DNA from: Enterocloster aldenensis
GTDB lineage: Bacteria > Bacillota > Clostridia > Lachnospirales > Lachnospiraceae
Reading direction: 5' to 3'
NCBI RefSeq assembly: GCF_003434055.1
Contig: NZ_QVEX01000005.1
Location: 124,001-188,000 of the forward strand
DNA length: 64,000 nt
In this document: positions 24,560 through 44,281 of the stretch, in pieces
How the letters are laid out: each line of letters opens with the position of its first letter
How positions within the stretch are numbered: the first letter of the stretch is position 1
Notes under the pieces: model-generated
Databases searched by the model: none
What the model saw: the letters and a program-made list of their open reading frames with translations, nothing else
What the model was told of the DNA's origin: nothing
Position numbers and translations under genes: made by a program

Positions 24560-24622
24560 TATATCAGTAAATAGATATGAGGTAATACCTTTTATCTCTA
24601 AAAGAGAAATATGGAGGATACT

Positions 24623-25108
24623 ATGGACAAATCAATCGATATCAGGAACTTAAAGCGCTGCGCCGAGATTTCCAGGCAGTCACGCGCAGGAGGCAACACT
24701 CCCTTCGGCGCACTTCTTGCCGACAAGGAAGGCAATATCCTGCTGGAACAGCCGAATGTGGAGATAACTGAGAATAAATGCACGGGACACGCAGAAACAC
24801 AGGTTGCAGAAAAGGCATCCCGGCAATATTCCAAGGATTTCTTAAAAGACTGCACCCTTTACACCACGGCAGAGCCTTGCGCCATGTGCGCCGGAGCCAT
24901 TTATTGGGCCGGCATCGGCCGGGTAGTGTACGGCATGTCTGAGAAGGACCTGCTGGCGCACACAGGAGCCGACCCCCAGAATCCAACCTTTGACCTGCCC
25001 TGCCGTGAGGTATTTGCAAGGGGTCAGAAGAAGATTGAAGTGGTGGGGCCGTTCCCGGAACTGGTGGAGGAGATTGCCGGCGTACATGAAGGATATTGGA
25101 ACAATTAA
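24623..25108 (+). CDS. Nucleobase/nucleoside deaminase (CDA fold; guanine or cytosine deaminase-like)
   Basis: A 161-residue zinc hydrolase. The ligand motifs are HAE (TGHAETQVAEKAS) and PCAMC (TTAEPCAMCAGAIYWAG). Length and motifs fit the guanine deaminase / yeast-type cytosine deaminase / TadA group. The adjacent NCS1 permease, 47 nt downstream, argues for a free nucleobase as substrate rather than tRNA. Guanine versus cytosine cannot be settled from the motifs. GGAGG precedes the ATG at 24623. Confidence 0.85.
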   Translation: MDKSIDIRNLKRCAEISRQSRAGGNTPFGALLADKEGNILLEQPNVEITENKCTGHAETQVAEKASRQYSKDFLKDCTLYTTAEPCAMCAGAIYWAGIGRVVYGMSEKDLLAHTGADPQNPTFDLPCREVFARGQKKIEVVGPFPELVEEIAGVHEGYWNN

Positions 25109-25155
25109 GGGTAGGACCGCAGATTAAATAATGGATTGGGAATGGAGGACATGAT

Positions 25156-26454
25156 ATGGAACAGCAGAACCAGAATCAGAATCAGGCCGCGGACACGGAA
25201 TTTTCCCGCTGCGCCGTACCTTTAAATCAGAGAAAGACTTATTTCAGCCTTACCATTGTATGGACCGGATTTGTATTCGTAATAACCAGTATGATGGCAG
25301 GCGGCGGGCTGGCGGCCGGCATGGATTTCAAACATATCATACTGGCCACACTGGGCGGCAACATTTTCCTCAGCATCATTGCGGTGTTAATCAGTATCAT
25401 TGCCTGTAAGACAGGACTTACCTTTGCACTGCTGACCAGGTACAGCTTTGGCTCCACCGGTTCCAAGGCAGCTTCCATCTTTGTGCCGGTTGTCAACCTG
25501 GGCTGGTACACCATCCAGGCTGCCACCTATGGTCACTTTGTGGCCCAGGTGTTCCACATGGGACAGGTGGGAGAAGGTATCTGCATGGCTGTCAGCGCCA
25601 TTGTCATGGGAATCTTTGCCATGTGCGGAATCGGCGCCATTACCATCCTTGGTTACATTGCAATCCCGGCCATTGTATTCCTGTCCATTGCAACTGCCAT
25701 CCGCTCCCTGGGCGTCATCGGCGGCATGGAGGCCCTGTTTGCCTACGTTCCATCCTCTGACATGCCTCTGTTTACAGGCATCACGGCTGTCATCGGTACA
25801 TGGGTCCTGTCAACCGCCACCTGTATTGCAGATATCATGCGTTATGCCAAGGACACAAAGGCAGCTGTCTCCGCCACCCTTACCGGGCTTCTGGGCGGCA
25901 ACATCCTGATGATTGTCTGCGGCGCAATCGCAGCCATCGCCATGCAGAACAGCGACCTGACGGTCATCCTTCTGGGATTCGGCCTGGTCATCCCAAGCCT
26001 TATCCTGATGACAACCAATATATTCACCACCAATGCGGCAAACCTGTACTCCACCTCCCTGAACCTTTCCAATGCATTCAAGATGGAGCGCAAGAAAATG
26101 CTGGCAATCCTGCTGGTACTGTCCGCACTGGCAACCCTGACCAAGCCATATGAAATCGGCTTCCTGTTCACTTTCCTTAACATACTGGGAACCGTTGTCC
26201 CTCCCTTATCAGGAATCATACTTTCCGATTACTTCCTGGTACATAAAGGCCACTATGCTGCCTACGATAAAGCCAGCTTCTGCAAATGGAATCCGGTTCC
26301 ATGGATTACCTGGGCCATCTCCATTGCACTGGTGTACATGATTCCCTTTGGACTTCCATCCTTAAACGGAATCATACTTGGGGCAGTCCTCTATACCGCG
26401 CTCATGGCCATAAGCAAACAGCGCGTAACCACCAACCTGGCAGAAGAAGCATAG
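25156..26454 (+). CDS. NCS1-family purine/cytosine permease (CodB-like)
   Basis: A 432-residue membrane protein with about twelve hydrophobic helices. The N-terminal Gln/Asn-rich cytosolic tail is followed by the NCS1 segment TIVWTGFVFVITSMMAGGGL; SRYSF-type TRYSFGSTGSKAAS and LGGNIFLSIIA are further matches to CodB-like proteins. It likely imports the base processed by the deaminase upstream. A ribosome binding site (GGAGG) precedes the ATG. Confidence 0.9.
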   Translation: MEQQNQNQNQAADTEFSRCAVPLNQRKTYFSLTIVWTGFVFVITSMMAGGGLAAGMDFKHIILATLGGNIFLSIIAVLISIIACKTGLTFALLTRYSFGSTGSKAASIFVPVVNLGWYTIQAATYGHFVAQVFHMGQVGEGICMAVSAIVMGIFAMCGIGAITILGYIAIPAIVFLSIATAIRSLGVIGGMEALFAYVPSSDMPLFTGITAVIGTWVLSTATCIADIMRYAKDTKAAVSATLTGLLGGNILMIVCGAIAAIAMQNSDLTVILLGFGLVIPSLILMTTNIFTTNAANLYSTSLNLSNAFKMERKKMLAILLVLSALATLTKPYEIGFLFTFLNILGTVVPPLSGIILSDYFLVHKGHYAAYDKASFCKWNPVPWITWAISIALVYMIPFGLPSLNGIILGAVLYTALMAISKQRVTTNLAEEA

Positions 26455-27847: not shown

Positions 27848-29314
27848 TTAATATATTCCTGTTAACATTCCTATAAAATAGATTGAAAATGTTAAAATCA
27901 AACAAGAAACCATGGTCATAATCACACCGGCCCTGGCCATATCCCCTATACTGAAATAACCTGATGAATACGATATGACGCTGGTCGGAGTTGAGGTCAC
28001 CAGAATAAAAGCAAGGGATAAAGTAAGACAGGCAGGAATCACAATTCCCAAAACCGGAAGTTTATAAGTAGAAGCCAGAACAATCATGATTGGGATAATG
28101 ATGGATGCCGTAACCGTATTGCTGGATAATCCAACCTTTAGGATACTGATAATAAAGATTATCATGAATATCCTCGCAAGTACAGGCATATGGACAATTC
28201 CCTTTAACAAAAGAAGGGCCAGCCACTCAGCAGCTCCCGTATTATATACAGCCAGTCCCAGGGAGATTCCGCAGGCAATCAAAAGGATTCCATCCCAGGA
28301 AATCTCCTTTTGTATTTCCTTCCACGAAATAGAAATTATACCCGGAAGATGAAACAGACAAAGGCAAAGAACCGCTGGAGCCGAGGTGCCTATTTTAATC
28401 CCCAGGATTCCACCCAGCCACCCGGAAGCAAGCCAAAGAAATGCTGTTATTAAAAAAATGATGATTGTATGCCGTTCATCCCTGCTAATTGGCGGCAGTT
28501 TCCTAAAATCATTCTCCATATCCTCCTTAGACTTATTTAAATACTTTTTTTCAGGCCTGAAAAATAAAAGCAATACAATCCAAGAAGGAATTATGAGAAG
28601 GACAACGGATGGAATCCCATAAATCATCCACTGTGTAAAAGAAATATCTATGCCAGCTATGTCACTGATGAATCCTATGGCCAGGGGATTAGGGCCGGCT
28701 CCTGCCGGCGTGCCGATACCGCCAATAAGAGGTCCCCATGCACACGCAATCATAAGAGCCTTGCCAAAATTACTCTTCATCGGTTCCATTTTTTCTTCCT
28801 GAAGAATGGTAACTGCCAATGGCATTAAAATAGCTGCCGCCGCCATGGCTGTCATCCACATGGAGAGTAATGGTCCCACAATCAGAAATCCCAGCAGGAT
28901 TCTGGAAGTACTGTTTCCTGTTTTTGACAAAATGTAAACCGAAATCCTTTTTCCTATCCCTGTCCTTGTCACCACGGAAGATAGTGTCAATACTCCAATA
29001 AAAAACACAATTGTATCGTTTCCAAACCCCTGCCTTATTAGATTGGCAAATGTATCAACCCTGGCAAAGCACATAAAGAGAATCCCAATAAATCCTGTTA
29101 CATGGAAAGGAACCGGTTCTCTTACCCATAAAACCAGGCAAAATGCAAGAATCCCCAATGACCTTCTCCCGGCCATATCCAGAGCCGCCCCGTCTATTTT
29201 TAAAACACTATCGCTCAAAGGTATATATAATATAAAAAGATATACTGCAATTGCCGCCAGAAATGATATATATCTGCTTCTGAGAGTTCTTACCTCAATT
29301 CTTTTACACTTCAC
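27848..29314 (-). CDS. DASS/SLC13-family anion permease
   Basis: A 488-residue membrane protein with about twelve helices. Segments such as LGILAFCLVLWVREPVPFHV, FFIGVLTLSSVVTRTGIGKR and GTPAGAGPNPLAIGFISDIA fit divalent anion:sodium symporters that carry di- and tricarboxylates. The start is GTG at 29314 with GAGGAGGG upstream. It is the last gene of the TRAP/enzyme operon, separated from it by a hairpin at 29354-29397. A second carboxylate carrier in the same locus suggests product efflux or use of more than one acid; that is inference. Confidence 0.88.
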   Translation of the reverse strand: MKCKRIEVRTLRSRYISFLAAIAVYLFILYIPLSDSVLKIDGAALDMAGRRSLGILAFCLVLWVREPVPFHVTGFIGILFMCFARVDTFANLIRQGFGNDTIVFFIGVLTLSSVVTRTGIGKRISVYILSKTGNSTSRILLGFLIVGPLLSMWMTAMAAAAILMPLAVTILQEEKMEPMKSNFGKALMIACAWGPLIGGIGTPAGAGPNPLAIGFISDIAGIDISFTQWMIYGIPSVVLLIIPSWIVLLLFFRPEKKYLNKSKEDMENDFRKLPPISRDERHTIIIFLITAFLWLASGWLGGILGIKIGTSAPAVLCLCLFHLPGIISISWKEIQKEISWDGILLIACGISLGLAVYNTGAAEWLALLLLKGIVHMPVLARIFMIIFIISILKVGLSSNTVTASIIIPIMIVLASTYKLPVLGIVIPACLTLSLAFILVTSTPTSVISYSSGYFSIGDMARAGVIMTMVSCLILTFSIYFIGMLTGIY

Positions 29315-29353
29315 CCATCTTCCCTCCTCACCTGGTATCGTATCCTATAAAAT

Positions 29354-29397
29354 TTGCTTAGCAGATTTACATGTTGAAATCCATATCTGCTAAGCAA
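29354..29397 (-). terminator. Hairpin between the PEP-hydrolase-like and DASS genes
   Basis: A perfect 13-bp stem (TTGCTTAGCAGAT and complement, 18-nt loop), followed on the minus strand by ATTTTAT. It starts 7 nt after a stop codon and may be a partial terminator. Confidence 0.6.
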
Positions 29398-29403
29398 CTC
29401 AGT

Positions 29404-30240
29404 TTACTTTAATTTAATTGACAGATAATCCTTACATACCTGTTTAATAGCTATCTCTGTGGGTATGCGTTCTATAGATGATGCGCCTACAAAGCCCACG
29501 GCAGCTGAATGGTCCATCACATACGCAGCATCTTCCGGGCTTGTAATGGAACCTCCATGGCACATAGTGATGATACGCGGATTGATATCCTTTGCTGCAC
29601 GCAGAATCCGGTCAGATTTTTCTGCAGCCACATCCAAAGGACTCTGTTCTGTGGTACCAACATCGCCGCCTTTTGTAAGACCCATATGTGATACAATAAT
29701 ATCAATTCCTGCATCCGCAATCATCTTTGCTTCTTCAACATTGTAGCAATATGACATTGTAATCATTCCCATATCGCGGGCCATCTGCAATGTAGATAAT
29801 TCTTTTTTAAATCCCAGTCCCACCTGCTCCAGCTCCGCCCTGAGCTGACCGCCAATCTTCCCAACTGTGGGAAATCCCTGGACACCAGAAAAGCCCAACT
29901 CCCGCAGTTTATGCAAAAAACGTCTCATATCCCTGGTGGGGTCAACCCCAAATATCCCTGCTATGACCGGGGTGTTCTTCACCTGAGGAAGGATATCCTT
30001 CTCCCCCATTTCCAAAACAACCCCATTGGCGTCTGTTACAGGAAGGTTTCCTGCTATTGCGGCAATTCCATTCATCCTTAACCGGCCTGAATTGTATATG
30101 CCTATCAAATCCACACCGCTGCTGTCACAGATTCTGGCTATCAGCCCGGTTCCAACCCCGCAGAACAACAGGGACTGCTTTTTAGAAATTTTTTCATAGT
30201 ACCTGCCAAGCACTTCATCCCTTGTATAAATCTCAGCCAT
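29404..30240 (-). CDS. Phosphoenolpyruvate hydrolase-family TIM-barrel protein
   Basis: A 278-residue TIM barrel of the PEP mutase-like/TIM-barrel signal family (PF09370-type). Recognisable segments are LLFCGVGTGLIARICDSSGV, VIAGIFGVDPTRDM, GVQGFPTVGKIGG and DIIVSHMGLTKGGDVG. The exact reaction is not established for the family. It follows the UPF0261 gene by 11 nt. In the plant protein Tm-1 these two domains are one polypeptide in the same order, so the pair probably works as a complex. AGGGGGAG-like purines precede the ATG. Confidence 0.88.
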   Translation of the reverse strand: MAEIYTRDEVLGRYYEKISKKQSLLFCGVGTGLIARICDSSGVDLIGIYNSGRLRMNGIAAIAGNLPVTDANGVVLEMGEKDILPQVKNTPVIAGIFGVDPTRDMRRFLHKLRELGFSGVQGFPTVGKIGGQLRAELEQVGLGFKKELSTLQMARDMGMITMSYCYNVEEAKMIADAGIDIIVSHMGLTKGGDVGTTEQSPLDVAAEKSDRILRAAKDINPRIITMCHGGSITSPEDAAYVMDHSAAVGFVGASSIERIPTEIAIKQVCKDYLSIKLK

Positions 30241-30251
30241 TCCTTCTCCCC

Positions 30252-31607
30252 CTAAAATATCCTTTTAATCTTATTTCCAGCTTCATATTTACCCTTATGC
30301 CATTTTCCCTTAAGCATGTCCCTTAGGTCACAGTACATAAGTTCATTAAAATCCGGATCATTAATATGCAGATCCACCTGATACACCTGTATGTTCTGAT
30401 TGTCCTTTTTCAAATTGCCAAGAAATCCCTCAGTAAACCGTTCTGCCCGGAATGACCATCTGGAGTTTTTTTCTGATGGAATCCAGGACGGCCCAGCACC
30501 TGGTCCGGCCCAGCCTTTCTTGATATCCGGTTTTTCTATATCATAAGCACTCCAGCCTCTCATGGGTATGAAAAAGGATACCGGGGCCGTTGCACAATTC
30601 AATTTCTTTGCAAAGTTCATACCAAGTCCATAGGCTTCATCCGGTGTGACTGTACATATCGTACAGTATGTATTATGAAAATGTGCCCTTCTCCCCTGTA
30701 TGCCGTCATCTATTTCACTATTTAGCCTGTCCCCCATTTCCCCCCGGTTCCGGAAACTGGAGAAATCAACGCTTCCCGGAGACATAATCTGGGGTATCCC
30801 ATTTGACGCAGCCGAACTCATCCTTCCTGGGCCAGCGTTATTAATACCTCCAAGAAGATGAGCGCTGCATTCACCCAGCGTTGTATCCGCCACAGCGGAA
30901 AAATATCCTTCGCTTATCATTGCTTCCATGGTTTTTCCGCCCTCACCATTTGCATGAAAAATCATACCGTCCACTTCCCCATCCTCGTCCAGACGTTTCA
31001 TGATATATTGGGCACAGGGAGTCGTAACCCCCTGCATGGATACGGCCACCAATGGTTTGGATTGTTCATCCGTATATGAAAAATAAGCTTTTGAACCTCC
31101 AGCAACAATACCCGCAGCAGTGTTTAGAATCTGACGGGATACACGGTTCAGGCCGGATTCCGTTACCGGATACATCATGGCAACATCCTTTTCCCCTATG
31201 TACTCAGCAGAATTATGCAGCATGGTTGATAAAAGTATTTTGGGAAAGCCTAATGGCAGTATTTGCATCACCTTTGACGAGATGGAACTTCCCATCCCGC
31301 CGCAATATGATATAAATCCATGTATCCTTCCATCCTTATACAAATTGCCAACCAGCTTTGCAGCTGCATTCGTAACAACAAGGGCCGCCTCCCCCCTGCT
31401 TAAAGAAAAAATGTCTTCCGGCTTCTTTCCCACCTCCTCAAGAAGCCGCGACAGGCTTATATCTACCCATGGCTCGTCAATCTGCTTTCCCAAGCTGAAT
31501 TCAATAACCAATGTATCGCAGCCATACAGACGGATTCTTTCAGCCATATATTGAATCTCTTTTCCTTTTGTATCTAAAATACCCGAAACTGCCACAACTG
31601 GTTTCAT
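30252..31607 (-). CDS. Tm-1-like ATP-binding domain protein (UPF0261)
   Basis: A 451-residue protein of the Tm-1 N-terminal/UPF0261 family. It begins MKPVVAVSGILDTKGKEIQY, the usual family start. The glycine-rich GFISYCGGMGSSISSKVMQ, MMYPVTESGLNRVSRQIL and FHANGEGGKTMEAMISEG are family-like. Members bind ATP in an N-terminal Rossmann-like domain; the enzymatic role is unknown. It starts 1 nt after the MmgE/PrpD gene ends, with its ribosome binding site inside that gene. It is the only clear nucleotide-binding protein in this cluster. Confidence 0.9.
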   Translation of the reverse strand: MKPVVAVSGILDTKGKEIQYMAERIRLYGCDTLVIEFSLGKQIDEPWVDISLSRLLEEVGKKPEDIFSLSRGEAALVVTNAAAKLVGNLYKDGRIHGFISYCGGMGSSISSKVMQILPLGFPKILLSTMLHNSAEYIGEKDVAMMYPVTESGLNRVSRQILNTAAGIVAGGSKAYFSYTDEQSKPLVAVSMQGVTTPCAQYIMKRLDEDGEVDGMIFHANGEGGKTMEAMISEGYFSAVADTTLGECSAHLLGGINNAGPGRMSSAASNGIPQIMSPGSVDFSSFRNRGEMGDRLNSEIDDGIQGRRAHFHNTYCTICTVTPDEAYGLGMNFAKKLNCATAPVSFFIPMRGWSAYDIEKPDIKKGWAGPGAGPSWIPSEKNSRWSFRAERFTEGFLGNLKKDNQNIQVYQVDLHINDPDFNELMYCDLRDMLKGKWHKGKYEAGNKIKRIF

Positions 31608-31608
31608 C

Positions 31609-32982
31609 CTATCTCCTTTCGGCTACAGCCAAATACCCCCAAAACATGTCCTTAACAGAATTAAAGTCAGCACAGTCCCCGAGTCTGCTAAGGCAATCAT
31701 AAATCTCCTGTATTTCTTTCTTATTAAACAGGCGGGACAGACATTCTGAAAACTTTGCATATTGTTCTGATTGTGAAAGTGTTTTCTCCCGCTCACCCTT
31801 TGCATATTCCCCCATATATTCCTGATAAGTACCATCCTTAAAATATACCTTCAGACAACTTGCAAAATTTGAGCCAGGATGGAAATCACTTTTCTCATAT
31901 ATATAAATCCTGTTTATAAAATTCCTGGCTGTTACATCTATCCCTGCCCCATCCAGGAAATACTCAGTTTTCATATCGCCATATATCAATGAAAGCGCGA
32001 CGCAGTAAGCCGTACTGAATTTGGCCTGTTCTGTATTTTCCGGAATCCTGTAAGCATCCAACCTCCATGCCGCGGAATCCACATAACATTCCACATAGTC
32101 CACATCATCAAGGGAAAAACCCGGAATACCGTGTATCCATATGGCACCATCAACCGCATTATGATTACTTCTACATGTAGGATATGGTTTTTGAATGATA
32201 CCTGGTGTAAGGAGGAAACTTTCCTTACAGTCAAAAGCTCCTAAAACCATATCCTCATTAAATTCCCTCGTAAAACAGCTGGCAAATCCATTCATGGATT
32301 CAAAAACGTCATGAGAAGACATAATCCCTTCTTTGGCCAGACCTGCACATCTTATGCCTTTCATACACAGGTGTCCGGTTGTAATGTTTTTTGCGCCTGT
32401 CCCATAATTCCCTTTTGTCCCGCCAGCTTCGCAGCTTGCAATCCCAAGTGCCGAACATGTACGCTCCACATCCAGGTTTAACAGCCTTGCGGCGGCGGCT
32501 GTGGCTCCAAATATTCCAAATACAGTGGTTGGATTCCAGGCATGGCCCATATTTTCCCTGCCTAGGCCGTATCCCAGTCTCATAGACACCTCCATGCCTG
32601 TAATATATGCATCAAGCATCTCAGCACCTGATTTGTGCATGGCTTCCCCTATCGATAAAATAACCGGGAATACCGGTATGCTGGGATGTCCTCCCCCCGC
32701 TGCAGCCATATCATCAAAATCACAGTCATGAGCTGATATGGCGTTTGCAAACGCAGCATTTTCCATATCTGCCTTAAACGGCTCCCGGCAATAAACAGTA
32801 GACTGGCTTTTACCTGATAGCTTTCTTACATAATTTATTGATGAGAGAGGAGTACGCTCCGTACATCCCAGAAGCATACAGCCAAATGAATCCAGGAAAC
32901 ACCGTATTGCAACATTTATTATATCCTCGCCATAATGCCTGTCACGGCAGACAAATTCGGCTGCCTTTTCTGATATGTACAT
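31609..32982 (-). CDS. MmgE/PrpD-family protein
   Basis: A 457-residue member of the family that includes 2-methylcitrate dehydratase, cis-aconitate decarboxylase and iminodisuccinate epimerase. Helical-domain segments NVAIRCFLDSFGCMLLGCTE, FANAISAHDCDFDD and LGIASCEAGGTKGNYGTGAK are characteristic. It acts in the cytoplasm on a polycarboxylic acid, by dehydration, decarboxylation or epimerisation. It lies between the cupin and UPF0261 genes in a tight operon. This enzyme is the best hint that the pathway substrate carries at least two carboxylates. Confidence 0.92.
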   Translation of the reverse strand: MYISEKAAEFVCRDRHYGEDIINVAIRCFLDSFGCMLLGCTERTPLSSINYVRKLSGKSQSTVYCREPFKADMENAAFANAISAHDCDFDDMAAAGGGHPSIPVFPVILSIGEAMHKSGAEMLDAYITGMEVSMRLGYGLGRENMGHAWNPTTVFGIFGATAAAARLLNLDVERTCSALGIASCEAGGTKGNYGTGAKNITTGHLCMKGIRCAGLAKEGIMSSHDVFESMNGFASCFTREFNEDMVLGAFDCKESFLLTPGIIQKPYPTCRSNHNAVDGAIWIHGIPGFSLDDVDYVECYVDSAAWRLDAYRIPENTEQAKFSTAYCVALSLIYGDMKTEYFLDGAGIDVTARNFINRIYIYEKSDFHPGSNFASCLKVYFKDGTYQEYMGEYAKGEREKTLSQSEQYAKFSECLSRLFNKKEIQEIYDCLSRLGDCADFNSVKDMFWGYLAVAERR

Positions 32983-32999
32983 AAATCTCCCCCTGCCTT

Positions 33000-33374
33000 C
33001 TACAATGGTTCAATATCCCGATGCGTGTAAACAACAAATACTTTAAGTATCCCATTGGAATAATTACCTGTGGAATGTAGCTGCCCCCGGTCCATCCATA
33101 ACACATCCCCTGGATTAACTTCAAAGGCCTTTTCCGCCCCATCTTCCAGGATATATCTGTGTATCCCCGTCCCCTCCAGAATCAAAATGATTTCTTCTGA
33201 ATCCTGATGGATGTGCGGTTCATGCCCCTGTCCAGGATATATTTTTAAAATACCACTTGTAAGATACGGACTATCCGTTACAGCAGGAAAAGTCAGCCAA
33301 TGTATTTCCCCTCCCCATGGCGTATGCCTCATCGGAACATTCTTCTCTGATACCACATTTGCCCATTCTCCCAT
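33000..33374 (-). CDS. Cupin-domain protein
   Basis: A 124-residue single-cupin protein. Metal ligands are the two His and Glu in GHEPHIHQDSEEIILILEG and His in DRGQLHSTGN. Small cupins of this kind are isomerases, sensors or metal-dependent lyases. It lies between the TRAP large permease (20 nt upstream) and the MmgE/PrpD gene (17 nt downstream), so it belongs to the same pathway. Confidence 0.88.
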   Translation of the reverse strand: MGEWANVVSEKNVPMRHTPWGGEIHWLTFPAVTDSPYLTSGILKIYPGQGHEPHIHQDSEEIILILEGTGIHRYILEDGAEKAFEVNPGDVLWMDRGQLHSTGNYSNGILKVFVVYTHRDIEPL

Positions 33375-33394
33375 AATCCACCTTCTCCCAATAT

Positions 33395-34696
33395 TTATTT
33401 ATATCCCAACATTGATGGCAGCCACACAGACAGCCCAGGTATGAATATAATCATCAGCAGGACAGCCATGCTTGTAATCACAAAGGGGATGATAGGCTTT
33501 ATGACTCTTGACATGGGACAGTCTGCTATCTGACATCCCACGAACAAATTCAATGCCATAGGTGGGGTAATAAGACCAATTGCCAGACAGAAGATAACAA
33601 TCATACCAAAATGGGTTTCCCCAAATCCAAGCATAGTTGCAATTGGAAGCATGATTGGAACCATAAGTATAATGGATACAGACATGTCCATCAGCATTCC
33701 CATGATAAGAAGCAACACTACAATCAGCATAAGGACTATCCACTTATTATCCGAAACGCCCAAAATGGCCCTCGAAATCTGCCCTGGTATCTGTAACAAT
33801 GTAAGAAGCTTTCCAAAGTAACTTGCAAAAGCAACTATTACCAGTATTTTTCCTGCCGTCATGGCAGATCCAACCGCTATCTTTGGAAGATCAGAGAACT
33901 TTATCTCATGGTAAATAAATATGCTTACAAAAGCCCCATAGATAATGGCAACTGCAGCTGCCTCCGTAGGAGTAAATACACCTGAATAGGTTCCGCCCAG
34001 GATGATAAACGGCATAATAAGACCAGGTATCACGCTGATTACAGTCTGAACCGGAGTTTTTGTGTTCTCCTGGGCAGGTTCTATTCCTTCCATTTCAATT
34101 TCTTCGGCTGTATTTAACCATTTTTTTACCTGCATCTTATTTAATATGACAAATGCTACCGTTGCCAGCAATCCCGGTACAACACCTGATATAAACATTT
34201 TACCTATCGATGCATTCGCCGTGACACAGTACAATACAATCGGTACACTGGGCGGTATTAAAATGCCCAGATATCCCGCAGCAGATGACAAAGCTGTGGC
34301 GTATTCCCGTTTATATCCATTCCTAATCATCTCAGGCACCATCAGGCCTCCGATTGCCGCAACTGCCGCTGCGGCCGATCCGGATATCGCCCCAAAGAAT
34401 GCACAGGCAACAATACAGATGGTGCCAAACGCACTGACAGAATCTTTAAAAAACAGCTTTGCAAAGTCCACCAGACGTTTGGAGACACCGCCTTTAAGCA
34501 TGATATCCCCGGCAAAGATAAAAAAGGGGATTGCTAAAAGTGAAAATGAATCAATACCTCCATACGTTGTTGAAGCAATCAGATTGGGATTGACCCCTGT
34601 AAAGAAGCTTTGATAGAACAATCCTCCCACGACAAATGAAAATGCTACAGGAAGCCCCAGCAACACCAGAGCCAGGAATATACCAAACAGTACCAT
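33395..34696 (-). CDS. TRAP transporter large permease (DctM-like)
   Basis: A 433-residue membrane protein with about twelve helices. It begins with VLFGIFLALVLLGLPVAFS; GAISGSAAAAVAAIGGLMVP, SAAGYLGILIPPSVPIVLYC and LAIGLITPPMALNLFVGCQI are DctM hallmarks. It moves a carboxylate or sugar acid inward with sodium. The ATG shares one base with the DctQ stop (TAATG). Confidence 0.95.
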   Translation of the reverse strand: MVLFGIFLALVLLGLPVAFSFVVGGLFYQSFFTGVNPNLIASTTYGGIDSFSLLAIPFFIFAGDIMLKGGVSKRLVDFAKLFFKDSVSAFGTICIVACAFFGAISGSAAAAVAAIGGLMVPEMIRNGYKREYATALSSAAGYLGILIPPSVPIVLYCVTANASIGKMFISGVVPGLLATVAFVILNKMQVKKWLNTAEEIEMEGIEPAQENTKTPVQTVISVIPGLIMPFIILGGTYSGVFTPTEAAAVAIIYGAFVSIFIYHEIKFSDLPKIAVGSAMTAGKILVIVAFASYFGKLLTLLQIPGQISRAILGVSDNKWIVLMLIVVLLLIMGMLMDMSVSIILMVPIMLPIATMLGFGETHFGMIVIFCLAIGLITPPMALNLFVGCQIADCPMSRVIKPIIPFVITSMAVLLMIIFIPGLSVWLPSMLGYK

Positions 34697-35196
34697 TACT
34701 CATCTCCCCCTTTCCTGCAGCGTTGAACCTTAACCGCTATATTTTTAGAACAGAATAATACAGAACTGATGGCACAGACAATGGTCGAACAGTACATCAT
34801 CCACATGGGTATCTGCAATACAGGGGATACCATCCCACTTTTAATAGATGCTTTTATCTGAAAAAAGTTATAGTATGCAAAACATGCCATTCCTGCCAAT
34901 ATAAAAACATTTAAGATGATATTGGCGTCAAATTTTTTAAACTTATGATTTAAATGATTTGGAACAAAATCAATATTAATATGAGACTCATCGTTAACAG
35001 CCAGCGCCCCCACAATAAACGTCATCCAAACCATCAGATAGCGTGTCACTTCTTCCAGCCAGGTAATAGAATAAAAGAGGAAATACCTTGTAAGAACACC
35101 CGTAAAAGCCAGAACCGACATGAACAATAGCATCCAGCCTATACAGAACTTCATGAATCTTTCCAATATCCTGCATATCATTAGTAATAGCTGCAT
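34696..35196 (-). CDS. TRAP transporter small permease (DctQ-like)
   Basis: A 166-residue protein with four hydrophobic segments. RYFLFYSITWLEEVTRYLMV and LAVNDESHINIDFV are DctQ hallmarks (EE-R-L pattern and HI-D). It links the binding protein to DctM. It sits 30 nt after the DctP gene. Confidence 0.93.
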   Translation of the reverse strand: MQLLLMICRILERFMKFCIGWMLLFMSVLAFTGVLTRYFLFYSITWLEEVTRYLMVWMTFIVGALAVNDESHINIDFVPNHLNHKFKKFDANIILNVFILAGMACFAYYNFFQIKASIKSGMVSPVLQIPMWMMYCSTIVCAISSVLFCSKNIAVKVQRCRKGGDE

Positions 35197-35226
35197 GTAA
35201 TCCCCCTTCCTTCTTACAATACATTG

Positions 35227-36351
35227 CTATTTACGTTCAGCAATTTCATCTTGAATCCGTTTTAGCAGGTCCGTATCAATCCTGTCATTGAATTTATCCC
35301 AAAGGGATTCCCCAATATCAACAAATTGCTGCCTCTCTTCATCTGTCAGGCGATGCAGTTCCATGCTTTCCGATGCTTCCATTTCATCCAGGATACTGGC
35401 TTCCAAATCCCAGCAGCCTTTATCCGCCTGGCGGCACATGGTATATATCTCATCTGCAAGATAATCCCTATCCGCTGCATCAAGACCATCCCACCAGGAC
35501 TGATTTGCAAAAACAGCATTTAATTTTAGCAGATGATTATCATCCGTATAATATTTAGTGACCTCATCATATCCCCCGGTCATTGTAATAATTGCGCCAA
35601 AATCATGACCATCCACCACTCCGGTCTGCAGGGCCGTATATACCTCATTGGATGCCATTGTAGTAGGCGATGCGCCGCAGGCTTCCACCAGGGCCAGGTC
35701 ACACTGGTTCTCCGGCACCCTCATTGTCAGCCCTTTCATATCATCCGGACATGTAATCGGCCTGGTGCTGTTTGCGAATGAATTGTAGCCATTGTCCTGC
35801 CACCCCAGGCATACCGTACCTTTTGCAGAGAGATCCGCTACCAGATCCTTTGCTATACCATTGGATTCATCCAACAGCACATCAATGGCAATCTGGGCAG
35901 ACGGCCATAAAAAGGGCAGGTCACTGACAAGCAGTCCCTCATCAAATGAACCCAATGTAGATGTTGGCACAATACACATCTGGATTGTACCATCGATTGT
36001 CTGTTGAAATAATTCTAGTATATTACCCATCTGGGCATTGTCATAAACAGTTATAGTAATATTACCATCTGTCTCTGTTTTTACTTTATCTGCAAATGCC
36101 CTATATGCAATATTCTGTGGATGGCTGGATGGGGCCACGTTACAGAATGCTATATCTATCTTGGCGCCACTTCCTTTTGTTCCGTCTGTATCAGCCGCAG
36201 ATGTATCCTTGGCTTTTTCCTGATTATCCGAATCTGCCTGAACCTGTTTCTCTGTCTGTGGTGGCTGGCCCGTTGTCTTGCTATCGGAAGAACATGCTGT
36301 CATTGTCGCTACCATTACTGCGCTTACCAAAACTAATAACATTTTTTTCAT
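35227..36351 (-). CDS. TRAP transporter substrate-binding lipoprotein (DctP-like)
   Basis: A 374-residue lipoprotein with lipobox MTAC (Cys20) and a charged linker to about residue 65. The DctP-type domain follows, including NIAYRAFADKVKTETDGNIT and LTMRVPENQC. The Arg in LTMRVPEN sits where DctP proteins contact a substrate carboxylate, so an organic acid is expected. The start at 36351 (MKKMLLV) was chosen over 36366 because GGTGAGG lies upstream. First gene of the eight-gene minus-strand operon. Confidence 0.93.
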   Translation of the reverse strand: MKKMLLVLVSAVMVATMTACSSDSKTTGQPPQTEKQVQADSDNQEKAKDTSAADTDGTKGSGAKIDIAFCNVAPSSHPQNIAYRAFADKVKTETDGNITITVYDNAQMGNILELFQQTIDGTIQMCIVPTSTLGSFDEGLLVSDLPFLWPSAQIAIDVLLDESNGIAKDLVADLSAKGTVCLGWQDNGYNSFANSTRPITCPDDMKGLTMRVPENQCDLALVEACGASPTTMASNEVYTALQTGVVDGHDFGAIITMTGGYDEVTKYYTDDNHLLKLNAVFANQSWWDGLDAADRDYLADEIYTMCRQADKGCWDLEASILDEMEASESMELHRLTDEERQQFVDIGESLWDKFNDRIDTDLLKRIQDEIAERK

Positions 36352-36720
36352 ATCCTCACCTATCATCCTTTCAAATCGTAATTACTGGATTTGTGTGCCA
36401 CGTTGCAATATTCATAGAGGTTCCCTGGTCTTAAAAGTTCTTTGGTGTTATAGCCTCCCCCCTCTCTTGATATTTTTGTACATCTGCACAAGCGTCTACC
36501 AAAATCATAGTTTAATAGTTGTGGTTTTTCCATAAAGAAATTTATTTCAATAGTCGTTTTATTGATAATATGTATAGAAATTATTTTCAATAATTCTTTT
36601 TAGGCGCGGATTTTTTATACTTTTTAGTAAGCCCTGATATACTGCTTATATAAAATATCAACATGGATAACATAACATCAGACAATTCCAATTTGTCTCT
36701 TTATTTACGGAGGAATTACT
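36352..36720. promoter_or_regulatory. Divergent control region between TRAP operon and SorC regulator
   Basis: This 369-nt A+T-rich region holds no gene. It carries the palindrome AATTATT-TTC-AATAATT at 36579-36595 and another TTTCAATA at 36546-36553, a motif that recurs in the hairpin at 37715. No fully convincing -35/-10 pair was found for either direction; TATACT near 36636 is a possible -10 for the regulator. Confidence 0.45.
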
Positions 36721-37698
36721 ATGATAGGAGAAACATATATGCCATCCACCTGGCTGGCATTGAAAACCGCCCAGCTATATTATCTGGAGAACATGTCACA
36801 GAAAGAAATCGCATCTATACTTAACATCTCAAACGTAACGGTTTCACGCATGCTTCAGCGTGCAAAGGACCTGGGAATCATCCAGTTTTCCATTGCAGAT
36901 GCATACCAATCCGCTTTAACTCTTGGGAATAAAATCAAGAACCAATATTCCCTTAATGATGTCATTGTGGTATCTCTGGATTTTAGGAATATAATCAATA
37001 AAAACATGTCCATAAAGCAGCTGACTGCCCTGGAAGGAGCCCGTTACCTGCAGCGGATTATCAAAGATAATGATATACTCGGATTGGCATGGGGCCGGAC
37101 CATGTATTATTTAATCCATTACTTAAACCCCTGCCAAAAAGCAGGTACTTCTTTTGTTACGTTACATGGAAACCTTGGAAATTATTTAGAAGAACTTGAA
37201 GCCCAGAACCTGGTACACCGCGCCTCCATGGCATTTGGCGGAGGTCAGACAGCCGGACTATACCATGACGGACTGCAGGCCTCAGAAGAGATTTTAAATA
37301 TCATTAATAAAAAACCGGATATCGTAAAAATATCCCAGCTGCTGGACCGCACTACGATAACCGTAAGCGGATTAGGTTCCTTTTATCCAGAGGCAACATC
37401 CCCATTAGCCAATTCATCTTATCTTTCAGCCTACGAACTTCAGGAACTAAAGGATGAAAATGTTTACGGTGATCTTCTTCTGCGTTTTTTTAACGAAAAG
37501 GGTGAGGAATGCAATACAAGTTTAAAAAATAGGACTTTATCCATATCCTTTGAGGATTATAAAAAAATCCCCTGCAAAATCATTGTTGCAAGCGGTGAAT
37601 ACAAAGCCTATACCCTAAATGCCGCCTTAAAGGGCGGACTTGCCAATGTTCTGGTAATCAGTGAGGACCTCGCATTACGACTGACCGAATTAATCTAA
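36721..37698 (+). CDS. SorC-family transcriptional regulator
   Basis: A 325-residue regulator. The N-terminal HTH (MSQKEIASILNISNVTVSRM) is followed by the SorC sugar-phosphate-binding domain, with LGLAWGRTMYYLIHYLNP and LATVLVISEDLA-like C terminus (NVLVISEDLALRLTEL). Members sense phosphorylated sugars or sugar acids. GGAGG lies 7 nt before the ATG. Placed between the TRAP operon and the RuBisCO-like gene, it likely controls both. Confidence 0.92.
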   Translation: MIGETYMPSTWLALKTAQLYYLENMSQKEIASILNISNVTVSRMLQRAKDLGIIQFSIADAYQSALTLGNKIKNQYSLNDVIVVSLDFRNIINKNMSIKQLTALEGARYLQRIIKDNDILGLAWGRTMYYLIHYLNPCQKAGTSFVTLHGNLGNYLEELEAQNLVHRASMAFGGGQTAGLYHDGLQASEEILNIINKKPDIVKISQLLDRTTITVSGLGSFYPEATSPLANSSYLSAYELQELKDENVYGDLLLRFFNEKGEECNTSLKNRTLSISFEDYKKIPCKIIVASGEYKAYTLNAALKGGLANVLVISEDLALRLTELI

Positions 37699-37714
37699 AT
37701 ATGTTATAGGTATT

Positions 37715-37755
37715 TTTTTCAATATGGTTTTTTAGCAAAATACCATATTGAAAAA
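37715..37755. promoter_or_regulatory. 14-bp inverted repeat upstream of the RuBisCO-like gene
   Basis: TTTTTCAATATGGT at 37715-37728 and its exact complement at 37742-37755, with a 13-nt spacer. It starts 17 nt after the SorC stop and ends 11 nt before the next -35, so it may be an operator, a terminator (CTTTCTTTATT follows) or both. Confidence 0.6.
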
Positions 37756-37765
37756 CCTTTCTTTA

Positions 37766-37794
37766 TTGTACTCTAACCGCATCAAGTATATGAT
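37766..37794 (+). promoter_or_regulatory. Predicted promoter of the RuBisCO-like gene
   Basis: TTGTAC and TATGAT are separated by 17 nt, 57 nt before the start codon. Confidence 0.5.
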
Positions 37795-37850
37795 GATGTC
37801 AAAATCACCCACTCATTTATCTTCATAAACATTGAAAGGAGATTAAAAGT

Positions 37851-39167
37851 ATGTATATTGATCCGATTTTAGTACAGGCACCAGAAGGGTTAGAAAAAGA
37901 GAGGTTCATCATTGCAACCTATTATTGTGCCGCAAAGCGCAGTACCAACATGCTAAAGTTCGCAGCCGCCTTAGCTGTGGAACAGACCTGCGGTACATGG
38001 ATTAAAGTTCCCGGAGAAACCCCGGAAGTCAGAGAACTTACCATGGGACGTGTAGTCGGCGTATATGAGGCACCATCCTATCAAGGAACCATGCCCAATG
38101 ACGTAAATGAACGCCATTTCATCATCCGCATTGCTTATCCCTGGAAAAATTTCGGGCCTCAATTTTCTATGATGCTAAGTACTGTTATTGGAAATATTTC
38201 CAGTTCAGGTAAAGTTAAACTGCTGGATCTTGAATTTCCACAGGAGTTCCTGAAGTTCTTCCCGGGCCCTAAATTCGGGATTCAGGGAATCCGTGGTATT
38301 CTTGGGGTACATGACAGACCTCTCCTTAATAACATGATTAAACCATGTACAGGCCTCAGCCCGGAAAAGACAGCTGAACTTGCCTATCAGGCAGCTGTGG
38401 GTGGTGTAGATATCATTAAGGATGACGAATTAGTTGCCAATCCTCCCCATTGTCCACTGATAGAACGTGTGAAAGCTGTCATGCCGGCAATCCAGAATGC
38501 TGATAGGATAAAGGGCGAAAAGACCTTATTTGCATTTAACATCACGGACCGCGCCGACCGCATTAAGGAAAATGCACTCAAAGCACTTGAAGCAGGTGCT
38601 AACTGCCTTATGCTGAATTATGCCACAGTTGGATTAGATGCTGCCAGAATGATTACGGAAGACCCGGAAATCGATGTCCCAATTCTTGGGCACTCAGATT
38701 ATGTGGGAGCCAGTACTGCATGTGAATGGTGCGGAACATCTACCAAACTGATGAACGCTAAGCTTCCAAGGCTGGCCGGATTGGATATGATCATTGCCCT
38801 GAGCCCATATGGCAAATTCCCAATGCTTATGGATACCTTCATAGACTGCGGATATGCCATGACAATTCCTATGGGAAATATTAAACCGATTTTTGCAATG
38901 CCTGGCGGCGGAACCACCCAGGGCCATATAGAAGATATTATGAATAAATTCGGAAATGATGTAATCATTGCGGCCGGTGGTGCCATCCACGGACACCCAA
39001 TGGGCCCGGCAGCAGGTGCCCGGGCATTCCGGCAGGGTATTGATGCTGTCCTGGCAGGACAGGGCCTTGAAGAAGCCGGAAAGCAATATGAAGAACTTGG
39101 GGCCGCATTAAATGCCTGGGGAATATATAAAGAAGACCAGGGTGGGAATTATGACTTGAAAGGTTGA
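37851..39167 (+). CDS. RuBisCO-like protein (form IV)
   Basis: A 438-residue homologue of the RuBisCO large subunit. N-domain residues are kept: Glu and Thr-Trp in VEQTCGTWIKV and Asn in STVIGNIS. In the barrel, MIKPCTGLS keeps the first active-site Lys (about 164) but not the second. GGVDIIKDDE (190-193) keeps the carbamylated Lys and both metal-binding acids. His in ILGHSDYVG, loop-6 Lys in SPYGKF (about 322) and AGGAIHGHPMG are also present. SGG is replaced by PGGG. True carboxylase activity is unlikely; a metal-dependent enolisation, decarboxylation or acyl transfer on a RuBP-like compound is expected. AAAGGAG precedes the ATG. Divergent from TRAP operon, next to SorC. Confidence 0.93.
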   Translation: MYIDPILVQAPEGLEKERFIIATYYCAAKRSTNMLKFAAALAVEQTCGTWIKVPGETPEVRELTMGRVVGVYEAPSYQGTMPNDVNERHFIIRIAYPWKNFGPQFSMMLSTVIGNISSSGKVKLLDLEFPQEFLKFFPGPKFGIQGIRGILGVHDRPLLNNMIKPCTGLSPEKTAELAYQAAVGGVDIIKDDELVANPPHCPLIERVKAVMPAIQNADRIKGEKTLFAFNITDRADRIKENALKALEAGANCLMLNYATVGLDAARMITEDPEIDVPILGHSDYVGASTACEWCGTSTKLMNAKLPRLAGLDMIIALSPYGKFPMLMDTFIDCGYAMTIPMGNIKPIFAMPGGGTTQGHIEDIMNKFGNDVIIAAGGAIHGHPMGPAAGARAFRQGIDAVLAGQGLEEAGKQYEELGAALNAWGIYKEDQGGNYDLKG

Positions 39168-39291: not shown

Positions 39292-40089
39292 CTACACATC
39301 CTCATAATGCAAAATCCTCTTACGGATCTGGCTATATTTAAGTATCTCCGTATCCACATACTCCCATGTATACACAGCCGCGGTCCCTTCCTCGTCAAAG
39401 TTTACCCCTTTAAGAAGCAGGAATGCCTTGGGTGCAATCCCGGCAGCCTTTAAGAGCCGGTCCAGCAGCGCGTCATCCCGGCTGTATACTGCGTTCAGCT
39501 CCACCTTATCCCATTCCAGCTTCCTGCCGCTGGCCTTATACATAAAATAGAAGACGGAATTAACATAATGGTCCAGTTCCGCCATATCCACATCCTTCAG
39601 GTATGAAAGAGGGATAAAGTCCCTGGTAACCGCGCATATCTGTTTGTCCGCATAGAATATCTTGTCGCACACCAGGGCGTCACTGCCCTCTTCTATCTCC
39701 AGATGCCCGGCCACATCCCGGTCCGCCTTCATGATCCGATGGTCAATCATCTCCACCCTTGGCTCATAGCCGCTGTTCCTTATCATATCCGCAAAATGCA
39801 TCACCGGGTTAAAGCTGGCCTTCATCTCAAAAAAGCTGCTGTTGACAAACGTGCCCTTCCCGTGCTTGCGGAATATCATGCCCTTGGCAGACAGATCATC
39901 CAGCACACTGCGCAGGGTAATACGGCTGACGCCTAACATCCGGGCCAGTTCTTCCTCCCTTGGCAGCTTCCTGTTAACAGCCAGGTCCATGTGTTTTATA
40001 AAACGCACAAGTTCTTCTTCCACCTGCAATTTTAAATCGGTTTTCCTGACCCTTCTGGGCACGGATTCCACCATATCATCTTCCGTCAT
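39292..40089 (-). CDS. GntR-family regulator (UTRA effector domain)
   Basis: A 265-residue protein. The winged helix (REEELARMLGVSRITLRSVL, then DLSAKGMIFRKHGKGTFV) covers about residues 15-85, with a UTRA-type ligand domain after it (HLEIEEGSDALVCDKIFYAD). The start at 40089 has AGGAGGGG upstream. It lies 183 nt downstream of the ABC operon on the same strand, beyond that operon's terminator, and is probably transcribed alone. Its target is unknown; the ABC operon or a gene elsewhere are both possible. Confidence 0.88.
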   Translation of the reverse strand: MTEDDMVESVPRRVRKTDLKLQVEEELVRFIKHMDLAVNRKLPREEELARMLGVSRITLRSVLDDLSAKGMIFRKHGKGTFVNSSFFEMKASFNPVMHFADMIRNSGYEPRVEMIDHRIMKADRDVAGHLEIEEGSDALVCDKIFYADKQICAVTRDFIPLSYLKDVDMAELDHYVNSVFYFMYKASGRKLEWDKVELNAVYSRDDALLDRLLKAAGIAPKAFLLLKGVNFDEEGTAAVYTWEYVDTEILKYSQIRKRILHYEDV

Positions 40090-40160
40090 CTGTCCCCTCC
40101 TGCAATTATAATGTCTTTCCTCATTATACCCCCTAACAAACCATTTGGCTACCAAAATAA

Positions 40161-40193
40161 GCCGCACCCTGTCCATACAAAACAGGGTGCGGC
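40161..40193 (-). terminator. Terminator of the ABC importer operon
   Basis: A perfect 12-bp stem (GCCGCACCCTGT, 9-nt loop), followed on the minus strand by TTATTTT. Confidence 0.75.
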
Positions 40194-40272
40194 CCATGAC
40201 GGCATTTTACAGCCCCTAGTACCGCCCGGCGTAAACAGGCAGGACGGAACCAGTACAGCCTTTATTATTAAA

Positions 40273-41382
40273 TCATACCAGCTGCCTCTTAATCCTCTCT
40301 TCCTCCGCTTTCTTATCTTCCAGCGGATACCACATGGGGTCGGCGATATCAATACAGCAGGCCTCGCCCGGGGAAAATACCACCCGGTGAGGCGTCTCCA
40401 CCTTCACCAGCTGTTCCCCCACCGGCACCAGGTACTCGGTCCTGTCCGTCAGGAATATCCTTTTTTCCACATGGGTCCTAAAGCCCTGGTCTGATGTGAG
40501 CCGGATGGCGTTGGGCCTTGTGGCAACCACCATTTCGCTGGCCGCGTCAGCCGGAACAGCCAGGTGAAGCGGCTGGCTAAAATCTCCCTTGGGATACACC
40601 CTGCCGTCCTTTATGACCACGTCCATAAAGGTGGATTCGCCCAGGAAACTGTGGACAAACCTGGAGTTTGGTTTTCTGTAAAGATTCTCAGGCGTGTCAA
40701 TCTGCATGATCCGTCCCATGTCGCATACCATCATCCGGTCGGAGATGGCCATGGCCTCGGACTGGTCATGGGTTACAAAGATAATGGTAAAGTTAAACTT
40801 CCTCTGGAGTTCCTTAATCTCAAAACGCATGGACTCCCTAAGCTTGGGATCCAGATTGGAAAGGGGCTCATCCAAAAGCATGACCTTGGGGTTGGTGACA
40901 ATGGCCCTGGCCAGGGCGATACGCTGCTGCTGTCCCCCGGAAAGGTCGGAAGGATAAACCTCCTCAAGCCCATCCAGGCTGCAGTGGTGCAGGGCCTCCT
41001 TCACCCGTTTTGCAATATCCGTCTTATTGACCTTCTGGATTTTAAGGGGAAATGCCACGTTGTCAAATATATTCATATGAGGCCACACCGCAAAGGCCTG
41101 GAACACCATTCCCAGCCCCCTCTCCTCGGGCGGCACATACAGATTCCTGGATTTGACCGACACCGGTCTGCCGCAGAGATGGATTTCCCCTTCTGACAGA
41201 TCCTCAAATCCAGCTATCATACGCAGCGTAGTGGTCTTGCCGCAGCCGGAAGGCCCCAGGAAGGAGAAGCACTCCCCTTCCTTAATGGCCAGGTTAAAAT
41301 CATCGACCGCAGTAACCGTGCCCATGGTCCTGGTTGTGAAGCGTTTTGTAACATGCTGTAATATTACCTGTTCCTGTGCCAT
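40273..41382 (-). CDS. ABC importer ATPase (PotA/FbpC/UgpC-like), second of two
   Basis: A 369-residue ATPase: Walker A GPSGCGKTT, signature [15 protein letters not shown], Walker B MLLDEPLSNLDPKLRE, switch His in FVTHDQSEAM, and a C-terminal TOBE-type regulatory domain from about residue 240. The start at 41382 lies 4 nt after the permease stop. Its fold and TOBE tail resemble iron, 2-aminoethylphosphonate or polyamine importers. It shares the operon with a second, related ATPase at 43117-44208 but only one permease. Confidence 0.9.
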   Translation of the reverse strand: MAQEQVILQHVTKRFTTRTMGTVTAVDDFNLAIKEGECFSFLGPSGCGKTTTLRMIAGFEDLSEGEIHLCGRPVSVKSRNLYVPPEERGLGMVFQAFAVWPHMNIFDNVAFPLKIQKVNKTDIAKRVKEALHHCSLDGLEEVYPSDLSGGQQQRIALARAIVTNPKVMLLDEPLSNLDPKLRESMRFEIKELQRKFNFTIIFVTHDQSEAMAISDRMMVCDMGRIMQIDTPENLYRKPNSRFVHSFLGESTFMDVVIKDGRVYPKGDFSQPLHLAVPADAASEMVVATRPNAIRLTSDQGFRTHVEKRIFLTDRTEYLVPVGEQLVKVETPHRVVFSPGEACCIDIADPMWYPLEDKKAEEERIKRQLV

Positions 41383-41386
41383 GACG

Positions 41387-44208: not shown

Positions 44209-44259
44209 TCCAGTCCCTCCTGTCCCTTATATTCCAATCTATTCCAATACACTTTAACA

Positions 44260-44281
44260 GGGCCGGAACATCTTCCGGCCC
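44260..44281 (-). other. Intercistronic stem-loop after the binding-protein gene
   Basis: A 9-bp perfect stem GGGCCGGAA with tetraloop and no T-run, between the binding-protein and ATPase genes. It could stabilise the binding-protein mRNA. Confidence 0.55.

Follow-up and report, generated by a model that had tools for sequence, protein, structure and literature searches.

In this study, we analysed a stretch of 64,000 nucleotides from Enterocloster aldenensis (contig NZ_QVEX01000005.1, positions 124,001 to 188,000; hereafter the window), and found in it a cluster of ten genes, probably catabolic, in which a RuBisCO-like protein (RLP) is accompanied by an undescribed partner. The RLP, of 438 amino acids (aa), is encoded on the plus strand (37851-39167), and its partner is a pair of proteins encoded on the minus strand, a UPF0261 protein (30252-31607) and a PF09370 phosphate-binding TIM barrel (29404-30240), which correspond to the N-terminal and C-terminal halves, respectively, of the plant protein Tm-1. 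Comparison of loci shows RLP, UPF0261 and PF09370 to form a conserved genetic partnership. The link between RLP and the Tm-1-like pair appears to be new with respect to the open-access literature searched, in which nothing joining RLP to UPF0261 or Tm-1-like genes was found; this negative is weak, only open-licence papers being covered. Co-evolution of UPF0261 with the TIM-barrel protein and their fusion in plants have already been published, with the pair occurring in bacteria, archaea and fungi and being fused in land plants (PMC5028733). No mention of an RLP link was seen in what that paper says of tomato Tm-1 and the bacterial pairs, and the window UPF0261 protein differs from these in belonging to a longer, RLP-linked subfamily of about 450 aa.

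A scan of one genome per species with an RLP alignment yielded 322 relatives; the top 80 were retained, and they represent 79 loci with identity to the window RLP of at most 75%. Absences in these loci set lower bounds on gene presence, because many of the contigs are short. In the stretches around the RLP genes, relatives of PF09370 were found in 33 of the 79 loci and of UPF0261 in 29; a relative of the window SorC regulator was present in 44, close to RLP in 36 of those. Two gene orders predominate, SorC-RLP-PF09370-UPF0261-PF09370 in diverse Bacillota and RLP-PF09370-PF04029 phosphatase-UPF0261-PF09370 in genomes of the Syntrophomonadia type. Fifteen loci within L049-L078 have the PF04029 gene (2-phosphosulpholactate phosphatase family) in their RLP/UPF0261 operon, mostly between PF09370 and UPF0261.

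When the search was started from UPF0261, RLP was located within a few genes in 22 of the 23 genomes bearing the long subfamily (15 + 1 + 7 in the three groups that follow). Among Syntrophomonadia, the class around L005 (Syntrophomonas), 17 of 63 genomes have a UPF0261 relative, and in 15 of them it is of the long type, with about 450 aa and E ≤ 1e-109. RLP was present in the fetched stretch of 14 of these 15, the exception being G100, where the contig extends only about 0.5 kb ahead of UPF0261. PF09370, but not RLP, accompanies the four copies of the short form in this class. In Clostridia, a UPF0261 relative occurs in 20 of 391 genomes, with the long form solely in G290, where RLP is two genes off, and in G325 and G448 a very divergent UPF0261 (25-26% identity) adjoins an RLP together with RpiB- and TIM-type genes. 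In the remaining Clostridia genomes with UPF0261 no RLP was seen; 14 of the 20 were viewed in wide stretches, and six (G463, G362, G012, G141, G179 and G183) with 1.5 kb flanks only. Finally, in the Lachnospiraceae-type family of L018, seven of 397 genomes have a UPF0261 match (E ≤ 1e-70), and RLP is nearby in every one of the seven, two of which (G018 and G023) were starting loci. A tree of 71 UPF0261 proteins grouped all 25 RLP-linked rows with the window protein in a clade of 47 (support 100/99), completed by database proteins listed without gene context and the truncated G100, and placed 18 generic rows without RLP in a separate clade. This tree omits six of the 29 UPF0261 loci in the initial set, for which an antisense open reading frame of greater length had been taken, as well as L164 (347 aa, by length) and the near-duplicate Syntrophomonadia loci L148-L160 save L150. 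Linkage, reciprocal search and tree thus support the functional tie between RLP and the Tm-1-like pair that a preliminary description of this DNA had proposed.

That description had also presented the ten genes as one regulon around SorC. All ten were recovered by Pfam scan at 27848-39167, with the domains and coordinates that it gave. Seven genes form a run on the minus strand with intergenic spacing of -1 to 30 bp, namely dctP (35227-36366), dctQ (34696-35196) and dctM (33395-34696), for the solute-binding protein and the small and large permeases of a TRAP transporter, then a small single-domain cupin gene (33000-33374; Cupin_2, E 9.2e-11), a gene of the MmgE/PrpD family (31609-32982), UPF0261 and PF09370. 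A gene for a DASS family carboxylate/anion symporter (27848-29314; Na_sulph_symp, E 1.6e-58; TIGR00785 above cut-off) is the last of the minus-strand set and begins 89 bp after the PF09370 gene; the sequence of that gap includes a hairpin-like inverted repeat (29354-29397), a possible attenuator. Divergent from these eight, on the plus strand, are the RLP gene and that of the SorC/DeoR-type regulator (36721-37698), which combines a sugar-phosphate binding domain (Sugar-bind, PF04198, E 1.2e-49) with an N-terminal helix-turn-helix-type match. The GC content at third codon positions (GC3) is 0.39-0.45 in all ten genes (0.403 in the DASS gene) and 0.50-0.68 in the 38 other window genes tested, with no overlap, and overall GC falls from about 0.50 to 0.39-0.46 across the ten-gene stretch. 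Such complete separation fits joint acquisition of both transcription units. At the edges of this island the longest common exact string was 11 bases, and no mobile-element boundary was found. When the flank at 39292-47780 was compared with the DNA of 250 genomes, all matches were short and conserved, the best having 68% identity over 399 bases.

Both units also have operator-like sites in common. Motif scans of the divergent dctP-SorC gap gave a half site, GAAATTTATTTCAATA, on the plus strand at 36537-36552, and a 20-bp near-palindrome, TATAGAAATTATTTTCAATA, at 36573-36592, matching on both strands; in the SorC-RLP gap, two TTTCAATA half sites make up an inverted repeat (37715-37755) with 19-nt arms that are 95% complementary. 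All four window copies of TTTCAATANNNNWTTT, a pattern picked after inspection of the gaps, fall in these two gaps, where 0.06 would be expected. A matrix derived from only the four window sites was applied to 47 loci; 20 of them have a match of at least 10 bits 5' of RLP, in comparison to 12% of shuffles, mostly on the plus strand and 81-121 bp upstream, and 11 have one of at least 14 bits, in comparison to 2%. A refined pattern, built on the 47 related loci themselves, occurs on the plus strand 60-140 bp upstream of the RLP start in 21 of them, with 0.09 expected from its density elsewhere. Hits on both strands reveal the palindrome TATTGAAA-N4-TTTCAATA, the window copy of which (36573-36592) lies in the gap that divides SorC from the TRAP operon. 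The palindrome is present both in loci with the Tm-1-like pair (L005, L007, L011, L014-L016 and L024; in L007 the pair is on a different contig of the same genome, L161) and in loci with an FGGY family gene (L003, L012, L013, L020, L021, L023, L028, L030, L032 and L033), which suggests a single regulator and one kind of inducer. On the negative side, 164 of 2000 gap shuffles share some 8-mer as often as the window gaps do when the motif is freely chosen, and, with a threshold of 10 bits, the matrix finds nothing in 27 of the 47 loci and in 17 of the 18 distant ones from L048 onward. It is the recurrence upstream of RLP in other loci that makes the motif convincing, and we infer that SorC is the protein binding to it. 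The compositional island and the common sites, taken together, support one regulon around SorC, as the preliminary description had it, probably acquired as a unit.

The window RLP has the RuBisCO large-subunit domains (PF02788, E 1.2e-10; PF00016, E 1.1e-46), and these, together with substitutions in its active site, place it by sequence in form IV of the RuBisCO superfamily. None of the NCBIfam RLP models reached its cut-off (MtnW PRK09549, 355 of 409 bits; MtnW TIGR03332, 309 of 514; OiaX NF042437, 202 of 700), in line with the earlier statement that the known RLP contexts do not match. At 18 positions which, with their numbering, we take to be those of the RuBisCO active site, alignment revealed 14 residues kept in the window RLP (E60, T65, W66, N123, K175, K201, D203, E204, H294, K334, G380, G381, G403 and G404), including the carbamylated lysine and metal ligands, and four changes relative to C. 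necator CbbL (K177C, R295S, H327I and S379G). In the same table, Priestia MtnW keeps 10 of the 18 and OiaX 11. R295 and H327 are presumably the ligands of the second phosphate in RuBisCO, and their loss fits a singly phosphorylated substrate. Among solved structures, the best match is the MtnW enolase (2oek, E 1.5e-80; also 3fk4 and 2zvi), named 2,3-diketo-5-methylthiopentyl-1-phosphate enolase, with which the window protein has in common the carbamylation lysine, the metal ligands, the equivalents of K175 and H294, and G403/G404. However, E, T, N and K of the window RLP at positions 60, 65, 123 and 334 are G, S, K and S in Priestia MtnW, and the ten-gene cluster is devoid of methionine-salvage genes. 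OiaX, 3-oxo-isoapionate-4-phosphate decarboxylase, is the RLP of a sugar-acid pathway and keeps the K334 equivalent as the window RLP does, but the two proteins are 29% identical, and the OiaX gene of L198 adjoins one for a four-carbon acid sugar kinase, absent from the window set.

RLPs acting in methionine salvage and apiose catabolism have been published, as has decarboxylation by OiaX in an apionate-type route (PMC6302742). In the same source, the R. rubrum RLP, methylthioribulose-1-phosphate 1,3-isomerase, is described to isomerise a singly phosphorylated ketose, which is the reaction that we favour for the window RLP; this likeness concerns the described reaction and not sequence, and the context of the R. 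rubrum protein, S-adenosylmethionine metabolism, is unrelated to the window. By analogy, we lean slightly towards enolisation ending in a carbonyl shift, as in such an isomerase, and regard decarboxylation of the OiaX kind as possible and distinctly less likely. The preliminary description had the substrate cleaved by the RLP, a step for which known RLP chemistry offers no example except as decarboxylation.

How the substrate of the RLP might be phosphorylated is indicated by the genes that accompany its relatives. An FGGY family gene is near 18 of the 79 RLPs, and none of these 18 is among the 33 loci with the Tm-1-like pair. A Gat-type EIIC of the phosphotransferase system (PTS) is near nine, none with UPF0261 or PF09370. 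Fisher tests gave 1e-5 for exclusion between FGGY and the pair, and 0.003 for PTS (with one extra PTS locus, counted by hand); the PTS and Tm-1 labels for these tests were assigned by hand and rechecked through family membership. Genes for FAD dehydrogenases are frequent in the FGGY loci, as are those for a class II aldolase and for a zinc dehydrogenase in the PTS loci. In the RLP tree, from which 10 of 83 rows are omitted (no open reading frame of 380-520 aa found), the window RLP is one of six members of a strongly supported group, the others being the Tm-1-type L010, L018 and L024, the PTS-type L006, and L019, which is of another type; the enclosing clade of 34 rows (100/99) mixes 12 FGGY-type and 11 Tm-1-type loci, with the contexts interspersed. 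Active-site letters agree across the window, L001, L023 and L039 save one or two changes. As the same RLP active site is met beside FGGY, Gat PTS or the Tm-1 pair, and never beside two of them, these look like alternative front ends, and since a kinase or PTS replaces the pair in close relatives, the pair is probably what provides the RLP with a phosphorylated compound to enolise. The simplest reading would be that of one RLP reaction fed by interchangeable phosphorylating modules, the Tm-1-like pair among them. By Pfam, classical kinase, dehydrogenase and aldolase genes are lacking from the ten genes and the eight neighbours scanned; thus, the earlier statement that no kinase is present holds at the level of Pfam, with the reservation that the Tm-1-like pair sits where relatives have a kinase or PTS, and may itself activate.

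On these grounds we tentatively propose, with confidence somewhat short of even, an acquired, SorC-controlled catabolic regulon in which a Tm-1-like activating pair feeds the RLP. As the carboxylate theme of the window (TRAP, DASS and the PrpD-fold protein) suggests, TRAP, perhaps with DASS, would import an organic acid, with a sugar acid as the likeliest candidate, and the PrpD/epimerase-like protein and cupin may rearrange it. UPF0261 and PF09370, acting as a split Tm-1, would yield a singly phosphorylated keto compound, which the RLP, with its carbamylated lysine and metal, would enolise, and the product might then enter sugar-phosphate metabolism. The phosphorylated intermediate would be the likely inducer of SorC. 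We infer every chemical step of this scheme, and the substrate class as well.

Several observations weigh against this proposal. The activities of all enzymes of the unit are predicted ones, and the Fisher values quoted above are overstated, because the loci are related to one another. In L018 the pair is found with an EI/phosphoenolpyruvate-utilising-type gene (family F6), so that the PTS exclusion is clean for EIIC only. Generic UPF0261/PF09370 pairs exist without RLP, and some are beside an FGGY gene (L166, L168, L181 and L187), and this makes replacement of a kinase by the pair less convincing. The Syntrophomonadia RLP/UPF0261 operon has no adjoining SorC, kinase or transporter, and need not be catabolic there. 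In L162, the one member compared of a second subtype (L162 and L211-L214), the RLP is without the E60 and K334 equivalents, and its chemistry may therefore differ between subtypes. We know of no UPF0261 protein that is a kinase. ATP binding is ascribed to Tm-1 and appears in family names only; in a fold search with UPF0261, just weak Rossmann-type matches were obtained beyond Tm-1 and 9mpy, and no function was deduced from them. The only ligand-bound bacterial UPF0261 structure listed, 9mpy, contains acetovanillone. The phenol-type dikinases HpeHI/AcvAB are described to phosphorylate this same compound, and they are built of ATP-grasp and swivel domains, a protein pair unrelated to UPF0261/PF09370 (PMC12167813, PMC9618137). 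The idea, prompted by 9mpy, that the acetovanillone kinase HpeHI is itself UPF0261 plus PF09370 was rejected on the same descriptions. A separate feature of L166, L168, L181 and L187 is that they encode a further PF09370 protein, of 542-622 aa and thus far longer than the domain.

One alternative keeps the pair as a phosphorylating module and changes the reaction of the RLP. A C5 sugar acid, branched or straight, oxidised elsewhere to a beta-keto acid, would be phosphorylated by the pair, and its decarboxylation by the RLP would give a tetrulose phosphate, in the manner of OiaX acting on 3-oxo-isoapionate 4-phosphate (PMC6302742). The carboxylate carriers and PrpD of the window would suit such a route, and so would the lysine equivalent to K334, found in the window RLP and OiaX and replaced by serine in MtnW. 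The second subtype has an amidohydrolase, metallo-beta-lactamase-fold hydrolases (possible lactonases) and TIM- and RpiB-type isomerases, and a TIM/RpiB-type isomerase pair acts on erythrulose phosphates in known pathways. This same TIM/RpiB subtype, however, has lost the K334 equivalent (L162), the score with the OiaX model stays far under its cut-off, and L023 and L039, the active sites of which are as in the window save a single G404A and a single S282P, have genes of a polyol-type kinase/dehydrogenase set or of a PTS around them, where no carboxylate would be expected. We consider such an apionate-like route improbable, though it is the least improbable of the alternatives.

It is considerably less probable that the two transcription units are mere neighbours, with RLP and SorC serving one pathway, TRAP and PrpD another, and UPF0261/PF09370 joining PrpD in the conversion of an aromatic or a carboxylic acid that has nothing to do with the RLP. 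The existence of generic pairs without RLP, the aromatic ketone bound in 9mpy and the lack of TRAP, cupin, PrpD and DASS genes convincingly placed beside RLP in the 79 loci could be understood in this way; but the window UPF0261 protein sits in the RLP-linked clade, a single compositional island and common operator-like sites embrace both units, and in relatives the longest-contig sizes of PrpD equal those of RLP and UPF0261. Least probable of all appears a salvage route (that of methionine or of 5-deoxyribose) acting on a 5'-deoxy or 5-methylthio sugar phosphate, with the RLP as an enzyme of the MtnW or R. rubrum type. Although the best solved relatives are MtnW enolases (2oek, as above), residues for the P1 phosphate are kept, and class II aldolase genes are near some RLP loci, the MtnW models are below cut-off, the kinase, isomerase, dehydratase and dioxygenase of those routes are not in the cluster, and a TRAP/DASS/PrpD set makes no sense for such salvage.

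If the proposed regulon is as we describe it, two families lacking an assigned function, the UPF0261/PF09370 pair and the RLP clade, which extends from Bacillota into several further phyla, gain a metabolic setting together, and the normal role of Tm-1 and the role of most RLPs become one biochemical question with defined partners. Presence of the partnership in many other anaerobes points to an undescribed breakdown route for a sugar-like compound, and the operator-like signature of the regulon may be used to find further genes of the pathway. A more far-reaching and rather doubtful extension would be that UPF0261 and PF09370 form a new two-part, ATP-using activating enzyme for sugar-type substrates, of which the long subfamily is a dedicated partner of RLP in anaerobes, and that plant Tm-1 is a metabolic enzyme later co-opted against viruses.

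The transporter and PrpD part of the regulon differs in its conservation. Relatives of PrpD, cupin, DctP and DctQ were found in none of the 79 RLP loci, and DctM and DASS gave a single match apiece, with identities of 23% and 25%, respectively; TRAP, cupin, PrpD and DASS thus appear to be a local addition outside that core. The preliminary description had named a lack of joint conservation of the RLP/SorC pair and the minus-strand operon as grounds for refuting its proposal; this does not refute it, since the UPF0261/PF09370 half of that operon accompanies RLP in a large number of loci. PrpD takes an intermediate position. The same longest-contig size was noted for metagenomic relatives of PrpD (66%) and RLP (89%), 57614 bases; of PrpD (56%) and UPF0261 (79%), 10010 bases; of PrpD (47%) and UPF0261 (74%), 8001 bases; and of PrpD (37%), UPF0261 (56%) and RLP (73%), 11245 bases. 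Identical sizes were read as the same contigs, which would mean that the set of PrpD, UPF0261 and RLP persists down to 37% PrpD identity, a co-occurrence suggested by the matching sizes alone. A PrpD relative of 84% identity is present in Clostridiales bacterium TF09-2AC.

As to the individual proteins, the TRAP transporter is complete, with DctP, DctQ and DctM adjacent and each above the Pfam cut-off (DctM also by curated models), and the closest solved chains to DctP are 4n91 and the isethionate-binding DctP 8t9t. The PrpD-like protein has iminodisuccinate epimerase (2hp3, E 2.2e-43) as its best solved relative, followed by cis-aconitate decarboxylase, and misses the cut-offs for 2-methylcitrate dehydratase (TIGR02330, 38 of 458 bits; NF006943, 51 of 575); it is assigned to the wider MmgE/PrpD superfamily only. 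Both UPF0261 domains are above the Pfam cut-off in the UPF0261 protein, which has the Tm-1 fold, and the PF09370 protein matched both the family profile and the 2p10 fold. A second TRAP and RLP locus was not found among the loci examined at the DNA level: two genes of L048, TRAP-like by size, proved to be DUF1097 and FmdA_AmdA by Pfam, and the 623- and 367-aa genes of L211 to be arylsulfotransferases, the latter pair adjoining the RLP set (L211, 10990-14001). Fusions or assembly errors may account for two database entries, P0255, in which a DctQ domain is given for a PrpD relative, and P0082, an RLP of 533 aa with an extra PF07876 domain.

The second subtype mentioned above (L162, 5876-13218, and L211-L214) has the order RLP-amidohydrolase-PF09370-UPF0261 together with RpiB- and TIM-type isomerases, and a metallo-beta-lactamase-fold hydrolase in L162, L211 and L214; labels are from Pfam for these three loci and from BLAST for L212-L213. 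Its gene content points to sugar lactones or acids ending as tetrulose or pentulose phosphates. In L163 (3112-6931) and L164 (6076-10366), a divergent UPF0261 (25-26%) is beside a divergent RLP (37-38%), RpiB, TIM and a class II aldolase, and no PF09370 gene was seen at these loci. Two RLP genes occur in a single locus in L006, L043 and L023. In the window itself, GntR/UTRA regulator and ABC transporter genes follow directly past RLP (39292-43120) and are placed outside the island because their GC3 is normal, and a cytidine-deaminase-type gene beside a cytosine/purine permease gene (24611-26454) lies just outside it as well.

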